Positions 6,566 to 17,499 of a DNA stretch of 20,547 bases are shown in pieces (position 1 is the stretch's first letter; every line of letters begins with the position of its first letter). A model generated the notes under the pieces. It did not search any database and was not told where the DNA came from. It saw only the letters and a program-made list of their open reading frames with translations. The position numbers were made by a program, and so were the translations under genes. This stretch comes from a virus: IMG/VR virus record IMGVR_UViG_3300021961_000790, positions 1 through 20,547 of that record, one strand, 5' to 3'.

Positions 6566-8749
6566 CTAGTAACTGTTCTGTAAAATTCCTGATTGTATGT
6601 TGTTGCCGTCTTTGAGTGTGCGTAGAATTTCTGTTAACAGCACAGACTGTCCATTTATGTCGGCACTGATTCTGGCCATGTCCATATTAGTCTGTGGTCT
6701 TGCATCGGCATCTTTGGTGATGGTTACCGGAATTGACTTGTCGCCTGGCAAGGGCACCACTGCTTCAGTGCCGTGTAAAGTTTCTTGGTATCCACTAACC
6801 GGTCCGGTTGATATGCCACCATTGGCCTTGCCTTGGTATGCATCTGACATCATTGACGCACCAGTTCCTGCAACAAACCCGCCTCCAAGGAGACCGCCCC
6901 AGCCACCAGTCGCCGCTGTCAAAGCCGCACCACCAGCTACCATGGCTCCACCTAATAGCATTTTACCCCAACTGATACCTTTATCTTCAGGATTTTTGAC
7001 ACCAAAATCATCAGCCATTGCATCTTTGACTGATTTTAATACATCGGCAAATTGATCAACATAGTGTGTACTTTTTAATAATGCCCGATTATACCCAATT
7101 ATTGGACCTGTGAGTTCTTTACCTAGTGCGGCTTTTAATCGTTGGACTTCTTCATCCAATTGATTGATTGTGGTCGTTAGTGGGTCGATGGTGCCTGCGG
7201 CTCCTTCGACTTCATCTCTGACTGCATCACTTGTGCCTTTGGCTACTTTAACTCCGTACATGATCTGTTGATTGTACATGTCAAATGCTGGTGCCAGTTC
7301 CGTAGCTCCCATCCTGACCGCTGTGCCTATTTCTTTAAAGTTGCCTGGCATGCTACGAGCGTATTCACCAACTTCTTCAAAGTTTCTTAGTGTTCTTTGT
7401 GATATGTCGCTGGCTGATAATGAGGCATCAGTGATGTCGTTATAAAATCCATAGATGGCTCCACGTAATTTTGGATTTCGTGCCATGTTCAGATTTGTGG
7501 CAAAGTCACCTATGGCGCGACCTTGTGTACTCATTAGTTCCATTACACCAGTTCTGGCATACTCAGGAACAGCGTTAAGTGCCGCGATGGTTCTCTCAAC
7601 TGCTTCTGGACCACCGACACGCATCGCCTCTGCTAGAATATCTGCCTGTAGTGCGTCTTTCCTTGCCTGTTCTAACTTCTTACGTGCATCCTCACCTGTA
7701 AGTCCTTGTAGCACTTTTAGATCTTTGGTATACGCAACAGTGGCTTCAGCCACTTCTCTATCAGTCATTGATCTTAATCTACCACTGGCATTCAACATAC
7801 TTGCGGTTAATGCGGCCATTTCACCTTGTTCTTCTACATTAAGTCCTAGGTTACGTAGATCCTGACCTAACGAAGAATTGCGTAGTACTCCGCTCACACC
7901 TGCTATTCTTCTCGAGGCTTCGGTTAGTCCAACACCCATCATTGATAGACTTTCTGTACTGGATTTGATTATGGCGGCAAATTGAGTGATGTCCAATCCA
8001 GCACGGTAGGCTTCATTTCGCATTTCTGACATACCACCTGCGAACTCTGCTCCTACTCCAGTAATGTCTCTGAAGCCTTTTTTAGTTTTATCCACCTCAG
8101 TGTTTAAAACTTGAAGGCCTTTTTTAGCCATGTCAGATAGAGCAGGGCCTGCCACTTCTGCGGCAATGCCTAATCCTGTTAACGCCAATCCCACCCACGG
8201 AAGTTTTTTCAAGAATACCATCAATGGACCTAGAGCACTGGCAACTGCTCCAAAGTTTTCAACCAGTTGTCCGGTGGCTGTGGCCGCTTTTTCTGCGGCC
8301 GATCCTAGTATTTCAGTGCCTTCTTTGGTACCTTGAAGATCCTTAACAAATTCATAAGCACCATTTAATATAGTTTTGGTTACTTGACCCATGCCTATGG
8401 CAAAATTTGCCATAGCTGTATTAACATTTTTTTGTCTATAGGCCGTGGCTAACTGAGAACGTTGAGTTTCTAGGTCTGCGGCTATCTTGTCTTCATTGGC
8501 TTTGACTGCTTGTTCTATTGCTCGATCTAATTTCTTAAACTCATTAGTCATGTCTGCCAATGGTTGTTTGGTACCTAACAGGAAATCTTTAAATGCCTTG
8601 CTGGCTGGTCGAGTTGCTTCTAACTCTTTCTTCCAGTTATCTATCTCTTTGTTTAATCGTGGGAGGTCTTTGATGAGATCTTCTATTTCATCAGACCCCT
8701 TGCTCAATGCCTCTCGCAACCGATCTAATATTTCACTATCATCAGCCAT
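6566..8749 (-). CDS. Tail tape-measure-like protein
   Basis: A 727-residue protein with tape-measure features. The N-terminal 110 residues are charged and coiled-coil. Two hydrophobic segments occur (about 172-204 and 597-631, the second Gly/Ala-rich). A long helical middle lies between them. Near 644-677 is a C-terminal block (GGISTGPVSGYQETLHGTEA followed by VVPLPGDKSIPV) of a type I know from many tail tape measure proteins. It would span the tail tube and set its length, the role of T4 gp29 (590 residues). Divergently placed beside it are the gp26/gp51-like genes, which fits a chaperone-tape measure pair, although in T4 they are co-directional. An exact late box lies 40 nt before the ATG. 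The ribosome binding site is weak (GGAT). A different large structural role cannot be excluded. Confidence 0.75.
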   Translation of the reverse strand: MADDSEILDRLREALSKGSDEIEDLIKDLPRLNKEIDNWKKELEATRPASKAFKDFLLGTKQPLADMTNEFKKLDRAIEQAVKANEDKIAADLETQRSQLATAYRQKNVNTAMANFAIGMGQVTKTILNGAYEFVKDLQGTKEGTEILGSAAEKAATATGQLVENFGAVASALGPLMVFLKKLPWVGLALTGLGIAAEVAGPALSDMAKKGLQVLNTEVDKTKKGFRDITGVGAEFAGGMSEMRNEAYRAGLDITQFAAIIKSSTESLSMMGVGLTEASRRIAGVSGVLRNSSLGQDLRNLGLNVEEQGEMAALTASMLNASGRLRSMTDREVAEATVAYTKDLKVLQGLTGEDARKKLEQARKDALQADILAEAMRVGGPEAVERTIAALNAVPEYARTGVMELMSTQGRAIGDFATNLNMARNPKLRGAIYGFYNDITDASLSASDISQRTLRNFEEVGEYARSMPGNFKEIGTAVRMGATELAPAFDMYNQQIMYGVKVAKGTSDAVRDEVEGAAGTIDPLTTTINQLDEEVQRLKAALGKELTGPIIGYNRALLKSTHYVDQFADVLKSVKDAMADDFGVKNPEDKGISWGKMLLGGAMVAGGAALTAATGGWGGLLGGGFVAGTGASMMSDAYQGKANGGISTGPVSGYQETLHGTEAVVPLPGDKSIPVTITKDADARPQTNMDMARISADINGQSVLLTEILRTLKDGNNIQSGILQNSY

Positions 8750-8762
8750 GTGTTTTTATCCA

Positions 8763-8770
8763 TATAAATA
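8763..8770 (+). promoter_or_regulatory. Exact T4-type late promoter box for the gp26/gp51-like genes
   Basis: TATAAATA matches the T4 late consensus at all 8 positions. Transcription would begin a few bases downstream, near 8776, and run into the gp26-like gene. The box faces the oppositely oriented late box at 8789-8796, so the two form a 9-bp inverted repeat (TATAAATAT / ATATTTATA). Confidence 0.75.
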
Positions 8771-8788: not shown

Positions 8789-8796
8789 TATTTATA
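8789..8796 (-). promoter_or_regulatory. Exact T4-type late promoter box for the tape measure gene
   Basis: The minus strand reads TATAAATA, an 8 of 8 match, placed 40 nt before the tape-measure ATG. Transcription would start near 8783 and run across the plus-strand late box at 8763-8770. The resulting leader would be about 35 nt. Confidence 0.75.
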
Positions 8797-8808
8797 GGTT
8801 TTTTTACC

Positions 8809-9654
8809 ATGGAAAATTCAATGAACAATCCGTTGTCTAAATATTTTAGGCAACCAGCAATTTATCTTCAATTACCGAGCAAGGGCAAATATTGGCCAGA
8901 CGGTAGTGTGGAGTTACCAGTCAATGGTGAACTGCCCATCTACCCAATGACAACCAAAGATGAAATCATCTTAAGAACACCAGATGCCCTGTTAAACGGC
9001 AACGGTGTTGTTGATGTTATCCAAAGTTGTTGTCCTAGTATTAAAGATGCTTGGAAAACTCCCAGTGTTGATGTTGATGCTATCTTAATTGCTATACGTA
9101 TAGCCACATATGGCAATAAAATGCCAATCGAAACCACCTGTCCACACTGTCAGACCAAGAACGACAACGAGCTTGATCTACAGGGAGCATTAAATTCTAT
9201 ACGTGCACCAGAGTATAATGAGTTTGATGTTAACGGATTAAAAGTTAAGTTGGTGCCGCAACCATTTTTTGGTGCCAATAGAGATAGTTCTATAGAATTT
9301 GCTGAACAAAAATTACGCCAAGCACTAGAGTTACCGGACACTGATCCAAAAGTACGTGCCGACGAACTAGCCAAAAGTCTACAGCGTTTGATTGACGTCA
9401 CCACCGATGCTATCACTGACAGCACTGAATATATTTTACTTCCAGACGGTGTAACGGTATCTGACAAGGCGCATATTAAAGAATTTTATCAGAATGCTGA
9501 TAGAACTTTTATCAATTCTATCCAAGCAGAAGTAACCAACCTCAATCAAGAAGGTGGTATACCACCTAACAAGGTTTTGTGCGACGACTGCACCAAGGAA
9601 TACGAAGTTCCAGTTCTCTTCGACTATGCCCGTTTTTTCGGAGTTGGCTCTTAA
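8809..9654 (+). CDS. gp26: Baseplate hub / tail assembly protein, gp26-like (PF12322-type)
   Basis: A 281-residue protein with the block NPLSKYFRQPAIYLQLPSKG near its start and PIYPMTTKDEIILRTPDAL near residues 43-61. I recognise these from the T4-like baseplate protein family annotated as gp26 in marine T4-like phages. Two CxxC pairs (C111/C114 in CPHC and C258/C261 in CDDC) suggest a zinc-binding knuckle. The start may be the ATG at 8809 or the in-frame ATG at 8821 (277 residues, NPL block right after Met, GGAAA upstream). The frame stops at 9652-9654, five codons after a T-TTT-TTC heptamer that can move ribosomes into the gp51-like frame. The family match comes from memory of motifs; whether gp26 or gp51 is the better T4 equivalent is less certain. 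Confidence 0.8.
   Translation: MENSMNNPLSKYFRQPAIYLQLPSKGKYWPDGSVELPVNGELPIYPMTTKDEIILRTPDALLNGNGVVDVIQSCCPSIKDAWKTPSVDVDAILIAIRIATYGNKMPIETTCPHCQTKNDNELDLQGALNSIRAPEYNEFDVNGLKVKLVPQPFFGANRDSSIEFAEQKLRQALELPDTDPKVRADELAKSLQRLIDVTTDAITDSTEYILLPDGVTVSDKAHIKEFYQNADRTFINSIQAEVTNLNQEGGIPPNKVLCDDCTKEYEVPVLFDYARFFGVGS
9633..9639 (+). promoter_or_regulatory. Candidate -1 ribosomal frameshift site (T TTT TTC)
   Basis: In the gp26-like frame the codons read CGT TTT TTC, so bases 9633-9639 form a canonical X XXY YYZ slippery heptamer. The zero frame ends at TAA 9652-9654. The -1 frame is open through this point to 9869 and carries the gp51-like domain, which has no ATG, GTG or TTG start after the heptamer until the ATG near 9735, inside the domain. 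GGAGTT (9640-9645) can pair with AACTCT (9653-9658) directly downstream, a short stem with less than the usual spacing. Confidence 0.65.
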
Positions 9655-9869
9655 CTCTCAGTGATGAGGAAATTGTCGAGCAACTAGAAAGACTCGACAA
9701 AGAGGTAAGGGCCATAAAAGACGATATCCTTAGAATGTGCTGGTATATGCGTGGCGGACTCACTTATGGTGAGGGAATGATGCTGAGCAAAACTGAACGT
9801 GATCTAATAGGTGACATCATCAAGGACAACTTAGAAACCACAAAGAAATCCAAAATGCCATTTTTTTAA
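9639..9869 (+). CDS. gp51: gp51-like baseplate hub assembly protein, expressed as a -1 frameshift extension of the gp26-like protein
   Basis: This is the -1 frame after the slippery site and encodes about 76 residues: a short helix (SDEEIVEQLERLDKEVRAIK), then CWYMRGG, then LSKTERDLIGDIIKDN, ending in ETTKKSKMPFF. The WYMRGG block and the ETTKKxxxPFF end are familiar from the short proteins annotated as gp51 (hub assembly catalyst) after gp26 in marine T4-like phages. An independent start is poor: the only candidate upstream is a GTG at 9579 with weak AAGG, and it would add 20 residues that are merely the shadow of gp26 codons. A gp26-gp51 fusion of about 353 residues made by some ribosomes is the simplest reading. 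It parallels the G/GT tail chaperones of lambda, encoded beside the tape measure gene. Confidence 0.7.
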   Translation, partial: RSWLLTLSDEEIVEQLERLDKEVRAIKDDILRMCWYMRGGLTYGEGMMLSKTERDLIGDIIKDNLETTKKSKMPFF

Positions 9870-10803: not shown

Positions 10804-11238
10804 TTAATTAATTTTTAGTTCTTTTACGGATCCAATACCAAGCCTAATGTTGATTATGCCGTTGTAATTGTTTTCACGCAACAGCACTTCTTCTTTAAAT
10901 TGGTAGTGAGCTTCCATGTAGTTTGTGATGCCTCTGCTTTTACAAAGACATATAATTTCTCTTGTGAATTTATCTTTGCCTAGTTGGTCTATATCTTTGG
11001 TGAGCCTGTCTGACGATCCCCAGTAGTCCTTCCAATCTGTCTCTACTGTTTCTCGTCTCTTGTTCTTTTTGCCTTTTAGAGGTGGTCTCTTCTTTACTGT
11101 CCAGAAAAACTTTTTACCTAAATAGTCAAACCCATTTTCGGTATTGGTTATTCTATATACGAATCCATAGTTGTCACCGATATCCTCAGACTCAAAAGGC
11201 TCGCCCTGGTAAGTCCAAGGATTATCGTATGATGCCAT
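10804..11238 (-). CDS. GIY-YIG-like endonuclease-fold protein
   Basis: A 144-residue protein with GIY-YIG-type elements: GFVYRI (residues 25-30) and DYLGKK (38-43) as the two halves of the motif, an Arg in FTREII (near 93), and a Glu in MEAHYQF (E109) at the place of the metal-binding Glu. A basic insertion (RPPLKGKKNKRR, about 51-62) and the block DYWGSSDRL (71-79) sit between. Similar proteins are known in T4-like marine phages; some GIY-YIG proteins are homing nucleases, others repair enzymes. No DNA-binding tail typical of homing nucleases is visible. It starts 2 nt before the stop of the preceding small gene and has no good ribosome binding site, so coupled translation is likely. Confidence 0.65.
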   Translation of the reverse strand: MASYDNPWTYQGEPFESEDIGDNYGFVYRITNTENGFDYLGKKFFWTVKKRPPLKGKKNKRRETVETDWKDYWGSSDRLTKDIDQLGKDKFTREIICLCKSRGITNYMEAHYQFKEEVLLRENNYNGIINIRLGIGSVKELKIN

Positions 11239-11706: not shown

Positions 11707-11714
11707 TATTTATA
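11707..11714 (-). promoter_or_regulatory. Exact T4-type late promoter box
   Basis: The minus strand reads CATATAAATAGAC, an exact TATAAATA, between the gp46 stop (11765) and the ATG of the 74-residue gene (11665). It would give the small basic proteins and the GIY-YIG-like gene late expression, separate from the upstream replication and recombination genes. Confidence 0.75.
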
Positions 11715-17469: not shown

Positions 17470-17499
17470 ATTATAATACCTATAAATACAAGAAAGCAA
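17470..17499 (-). promoter_or_regulatory. Candidate host sigma70-type promoter for gp55
   Basis: The minus strand has a perfect TATAAT (17475-17470), with TTGCTT (17499-17494) 18 bp upstream as a partial -35 box. The expected start near 17463 gives a 22-nt leader that contains the AAAGGA of gp55. The late box for the plus strand lies inside the spacer. Confidence 0.45.
17481..17488 (+). promoter_or_regulatory. Exact T4-type late promoter box for the gp48-gp53 block
   Basis: CCTATAAATACAAG carries an exact TATAAATA. Transcription would begin near 17494, giving a short leader with AAGAGG before the ATG at 17516. It is divergent from gp55 and overlaps the candidate gp55 promoter. Confidence 0.8.

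Follow-up and report, generated by a model that had tools for sequence, protein, structure and literature searches.

A programmed -1 ribosomal frameshift site from which one gene would yield two isoforms of a tail assembly chaperone is, with a probability of about 0.9, what we infer at the gp26-like locus of an uncultured T4 relative. The best reading of the locus is a chaperone system of the lambda G/GT type, by analogy. The window, that is the whole stretch of DNA analysed (20,547 nt, IMG/VR record IMGVR_UViG_3300021961_000790), is a 20.5 kb virus fragment carrying T4-type genes for gp23, a gp21-type protease, gp20 and a gp53-like wedge protein; it has no nucleotide similarity to cultured phages. 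Its gp26-like gene starts at ATG 8809, and the short-form product matches the Pfam family T4_baseplate (PF12322, E 4.8e-16, exceeding the gathering cut-off) and the phrog_150 ‘baseplate hub’ family (E 5.4e-18); the query used in the searches began at 8797, four residues upstream of the ATG. Features of the locus are compiled in Table 1.

Table 1. Features of the gp26-like locus and its surroundings, in window coordinates
Feature	Position	Strand	Basis or remark
Tape-measure-like protein, 727 aa, divergent neighbour of the gp26-like gene	6566..8749	-	phrog tape-measure match, E 0.002 (weak)
T4-type late promoter box TATAAATA upstream of the gp26-like gene	8763..8770	+	consensus match only
gp26-like protein, short form (TAC-N-like), 281 aa	8809..9654	+	PF12322 / phrog_150
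Slippery heptamer T TTT TTC, in phase	9633..9639	+	sequence; conserved in relatives
-1 frame extension (gp51 C-terminal-like, TAC-C-like), 76 codons + stop	9639..9869	+	base 9639 read twice
Putative stimulatory RNA stem-loop	9645..9714	+	outer stem 9645-9653 with 9706-9714, 5 nt past the heptamer

The gp26-like gene ends in CGT TTT TTC GGA GTT GGC TCT TAA, with four sense codons between the heptamer and the zero-frame TAA at 9652-9654. The T TTT TTC stands in the phase required for two-tRNA -1 slippage, exactly as the initial annotation had seen it. TTTTTTC alone is common, with eight copies on the plus strand of the window; the significance of this copy lies in its phase, position and conservation, not in its mere presence. 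The -1 frame is open at the heptamer, being stop-free from about 9570 to 9866 and closed by a stop at 9867-9869, and the product past the slippage point reads FF-RSWLLTLSDEEIVEQLERLDKEVRAIKDDILRMCWYMRGGLTYGEGMMLSKTERDLIGDIIKDNLETTKKSKMPFF. No credible start for the extension was found near the junction in the window, and the first -1-frame start past it, ATG 9735, falls within the conserved domain, in agreement with the claim that the gp51-like domain lacks a start of its own. The open reading frame earlier delimited as 9579-9869 is indeed open, but its ‘start’ is just a GTG inside gp26. The 76 residues of the extension are conserved, and differences within the window clade are most frequent at third positions of -1-frame codons (9587), followed by first (5704) and second (3660) positions; by this bias the -1 frame evolves as coding sequence. 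An AlphaFold model of the extension is confident and all-helical (pLDDT 90), with uncharacterised phage proteins of similar size as the best matches in a fold search (best E 0.004), and the domain has no direct match in Pfam or PHROG.

Relatives of the gp26-like protein are encoded at 80 IMG/VR loci, with 33-71% identity across the matched part. In all 78 loci that include the gene end, and thus with the window in 79 of 79, T TTT TTC occurs in phase and 1-4 codons before the stop. After dereplication at 90% identity, an in-phase T TTT TT(C/T) is present in 57/57 relatives (54 TTTTTTC, 3 TTTTTTT), and in each of them the -1 frame stays open for 47-97 codons beyond the zero-frame stop. Gene bodies of gp26 contain one in-phase T6(C/T) motif per 14,168 codons, corresponding to 0.0018 expected per 25-codon tail; a naive log10 P of -47 from the 57-gene comparison was set aside because it ignores shared ancestry. 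The residue preceding FF is variable in the dereplicated set (N, S, D, H, R, A, Y or G), its codon always ends in T, and the Phe codons at the slip site are always TTT-TTC or TTT-TTT. Phages RAS14, C48C1 and pf16 have T TTT TTT at this place.

The motif extends to more distant myoviruses. All eight jumbo phages of the RaK2/PA5oct/Atu_ph07 type (Atu_ph07, Phosso, PA5oct, RaK2, 121Q, SCTP-2, Vibrio 2.275.O and Munch) carry the heptamer 1-11 codons before the stop; the -1 extension in these genomes has no annotation or is labelled hypothetical. It lies one codon before the stop in the cyanophages S-SM2, Bellamy and P-SSM7, in the KVP40-like ValKK3, Aeromonas 65 and AsFcp_1, and also in Stenotrophomonas Yut3. 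With the Bellamy and ValKK3 proteins as queries, 82 cyanophage/KVP40-like loci were found; in every one of them TTTTTTC stands exactly one codon ahead of the stop, and in 78 it is preceded by the serine codon TCT or AGT. An ATG or GTG is found near the junction in 80 of these 82 loci and in 18 of the 57 dereplicated relatives. The heptamer and its phase are conserved throughout (57/57 and 82/82); in the loci with a start near the junction, the extension could also be initiated separately.

Downstream of the heptamer, the putative stem-loop of the window has a minimum free energy of -25.3 kcal/mol (z -4.1); a wider fold, covering 161 nt, has ordinary stability (z -1.0). The gap of 5 nt between heptamer and stem is the spacing of a frameshift stimulator, a role predicted here from sequence. 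The same stem occurs in nearly all relatives of the window clade, with L042 as a member devoid of it, and in Atu_ph07 and Phosso. Paired changes are seen in an alignment of 28 sequences, where one pair is CG in 13 and UA in 13, and another GC in 17, AU in 9 and UA in 1. The covariation score reaches 0.216, compared with 0.118 in shuffles (0/500 reach 0.216) and at most 0.136 when the partner strand is slid. Part of this covariation links a Leu codon that changes silently in one arm to an Arg/Lys change in the other, a coupling that is not predicted by protein constraint alone. Altogether, the covariation argues strongly, though not conclusively, for a conserved RNA structure, as kinship of the sequences can inflate such scores. 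Other lineages lack this stem, and no consistent structure emerged from cyanophage, RaK2-like or most clade-b sequences, so that a stem-loop general to all lineages was rejected. Clade-b loci L051-L080 have a different possible structure (ACGGGTTCCTAGG...CCTAGG..ACTCG), one base past the heptamer and with weak z-scores.

In T4, genes 26 and 51 are separate, divergent and homologous. Both products are full-length members of PF12322 (E 8.8e-64 for gp26 and 3.9e-52 for gp51), and the longer gp51 consists of a gp26-like domain and a C-terminal extension. The C-terminus of T4 gp51 matches phrog_634, the cyanophage gp51 family, which is itself the -1 extension. Aligned as whole proteins, the fusions of the window group match the cyanophage fusions and T4 gp51 over the full length, extension included (99.6%, E 1.9e-24); the -1 domain alone gives a weak hhalign match to the cyanophage and T4 gp51 C-termini (49.6%, E 1.7e-4). 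The names gp26 and gp51 given in the initial annotation are therefore well founded for the PF12322 domain and for the fusion as a whole, and the -1 domain is tied to gp51 mainly because the entire fusion is collinear, its own similarity being weak. T4 itself has no sign of a frameshift: gene 26 ends in GAG TTC TTT GAG, where FF is kept and the sequence is not slippery. As judged from these alignments, T4 gp26 probably represents the short form and T4 gp51 the long one. Since both belong to PF12322 and gp51 is a gp26 domain with an extension, T4 appears to make the two forms from two genes, while its relatives would use one frameshifted gene. T4 and the window are alike in their PF12322 proteins and in the collinearity of gp51 with the window frameshift product, and differ in that T4 has one gene for each form, the two being divergent and free of a slippery site. 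Cyanophage and vibriophage gp51 have been described as lacking the first ~200 residues (PMC3037559), and reading gp51 as a frameshift extension accounts for this absence.

Other origins for the downstream reading frame have to be weighed against ribosomal frameshifting. The -1 domain could be a gene in its own right, translated through coupled re-initiation at a start of its own, with the T run incidental. It is annotated as such in cyanophages, ValKK3, Yut3 and 121Q, and the near-junction ATG of the cyanophage/KVP40-like loci, like the ATG or GTG in a minority of the dereplicated relatives, would suit separate initiation. However, neither the window nor most of its relatives has a usable start, and, amid variable flanking residues, the heptamer and its phase stay constant. 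Moreover, the annotated starts would lose conserved residues located right after FF, and T4 gp51 holds both domains in one chain. We consider separate initiation very unlikely.

Slippage of the polymerase rather than the ribosome on the T run, yielding transcripts of mixed frames, is if anything slightly less probable still. The motif consists of six T in a row, sometimes seven, and polymerase slippage is known for some genes with long A or T runs; yet six T are short for efficient slippage, the last base is C in 54 of the 57 dereplicated relatives, which suits two-tRNA slippage on TTT TTC, and a covarying RNA hairpin placed where a stimulator would be agrees with ribosomal frameshifting. That a frameshift mutation, or an indel from assembly, interrupts what is truly one continuous gene can be given almost no credence. 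T4 gp51 does carry these two domains without interruption and homopolymer runs are error-prone, but the same arrangement recurs in many independent contigs and in many cultured phage genomes, always with the stop after the heptamer. This conservation refutes the reading; in particular, a sequencing indel at the T run, raised initially as a possible refutation, is excluded because independent contigs from many sites agree. A programmed -1 ribosomal frameshift therefore remains the preferred reading, in line with the original proposal, with an in-phase conserved heptamer, a coding -1 frame and a covarying stem-loop all pointing to it.

Under programmed frameshifting, most ribosomes would stop at 9652 and release the short gp26-like form. 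A minority would slip back by one base on T TTT TTC, aided by the stem-loop 5 nt downstream, and produce a long form of ~353 residues with a gp51-type C-terminal domain. If the parallel with lambda gpG/gpGT holds, the short form may coat the tape measure protein, the extra domain of the long form may recruit the tail tube protein, and neither form would stay in the virion. A chaperone function of the gp26-like short/long pair is likewise proposed from this analogy. One review names T4 gp26 and gp51 as chaperones of hub assembly; it gives gp51 as needed yet missing from the particle, and also notes that genetic data support a place of gp26 in the hub (PMC3004832). The PDB has no chain for T4 gp26 or gp51, although the hub protein gp27 of the same baseplate is present in 5iv5, and this lack agrees with proteins absent from the virion. 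Comparison of the gp26 model with solved structures matched no tail chaperone fold (Foldseek E at least 0.49, VIA Z at most 6.2); the matches, mostly to one helical stretch, are uninformative and no evidence of a new fold.

The tape-measure-like gene, whose product is the presumed client of the chaperone, deserves a separate comment. It adjoins the gp26-like gene, as first noted, but it is divergent rather than downstream, and its assignment is weak, being based on the PHROG match; the syntenic gene of RaK2 is annotated as tape-measure-like. In cyanophages, gp26 and gp51, in this order, are followed by a long gene whose position makes it a tape-measure candidate. Late promoter boxes resembling that of the window are also found upstream of gp26 in many relatives. 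The window contains four exact TATAAATA boxes versus 1.3 expected. Two of them, at 8763-8770 (+) and 8789-8796 (-), are divergent and lie between the gp26-like and tape-measure-like genes; those at 11707-11714 (-) and 17481-17488 (+) sit just upstream of open reading frames. Elsewhere, this T4-type fragment encodes a Radical SAM/SPASM protein (PF04055, PF13186; 15278-16591, minus strand). Near the 26/51 locus, it carries a gene for a SegE-like GIY-YIG homing endonuclease (10804-11238, minus strand; PF19835, E 1.6e-38), and T4 segE is likewise near 26/51.

Junctions of other types occur in a few phages, each represented by a single genome. In Rhodothermus RM378 (L095, near 4113) and Microcystis Mel-JY01 (L091, near 3760), the gp26-like gene ends in TTTTTTTGG and the extension is in the +1 (equivalently -2) frame, which suggests that another kind of recoding takes place there. 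In Vibrio BX-1 and D506 the extension is in the -1 frame and the junction sequences are of other types, and Streptococcus phage GXN1 (L105, near 2730) has a long open +1 frame after the gp26-like gene, without a T run. As to evolution, we lean slightly towards a scenario in which 26/51 recoding would be ancestral to a very broad supergroup of T4-like and jumbo myoviruses. It would have been retuned by lineage, with -1 slippage at T6C/T7 sites, apparent +1/-2 recoding at TTTTTTTGG in RM378 and Mel-JY01 and a covarying hairpin in the clade of the window, and T4 would have replaced recoding by duplication into 26 (short) and 51 (long).

Producing a short and a long form through frameshifting is the hallmark of tail assembly chaperones, as exemplified by lambda gpG/gpGT; lambda slips at GGGAAAG, and its locus precedes the tape measure gene in the same orientation. 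The window differs from lambda by its T TTT TTC site with a hairpin and by its divergent tape-measure-like neighbour; the likeness is one of arrangement, not of demonstrated sequence homology. Among T4-like phages, frameshifting is reportedly conserved in several groups, with T4 using separate genes (Vladimirov, Gautam and Davidson, Virology 566:9-15, 2022). Where later papers cite that study, one states that some T4-like phages have one short gene and one fusion gene instead of frameshifting (PMC10885494) and another mentions poly-T signals in the TAC-N genes of T4-like phages (PMC12846349). Judging from these citing statements, the idea that gp26/gp51 are the tail assembly chaperones of T4-like phages, which the initial annotation thought the locus could support, was already published in 2022; the concept is therefore not a novelty, and the window adds one more well-marked member to it. 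With the T4-like systems as they are cited there, the window shares short and long forms and poly-T slip sites, whereas the covarying stem-loop of its clade and the divergent tape-measure gene may be additional. The TAC locus of Vandenendeviridae/Andersonviridae, as in phage Adele, has a poly-T slip site at the end of TAC-N and a conserved open -1 frame, as in the window, but its motif is GTTTTT and it lies just upstream of the tape measure gene (PMC12846349). More generally, the TAC frameshift is described as widely conserved among long-tailed phages ‘except T4’ (PMC5009743).

In the window, slip signal and RNA hairpin are unusually clear. The covarying hairpin, the extension to an uncultured clade and to the jumbo group, and the +1/-2 variants may be new. 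An abundant group of uncultured phages and the jumbo phages of the RaK2/PA5oct/Atu_ph07 type would thereby enter the frameshift scheme of tail chaperones. This may also explain long-standing annotation oddities, such as the truncated ‘gp51’ of cyanophages and vibriophages and the many gp51 genes that are missing or ‘hypothetical’. Finally, the clade-specific hairpin would offer a handle on frameshift efficiency, and hence on the short:long ratio, in T4-like tails.
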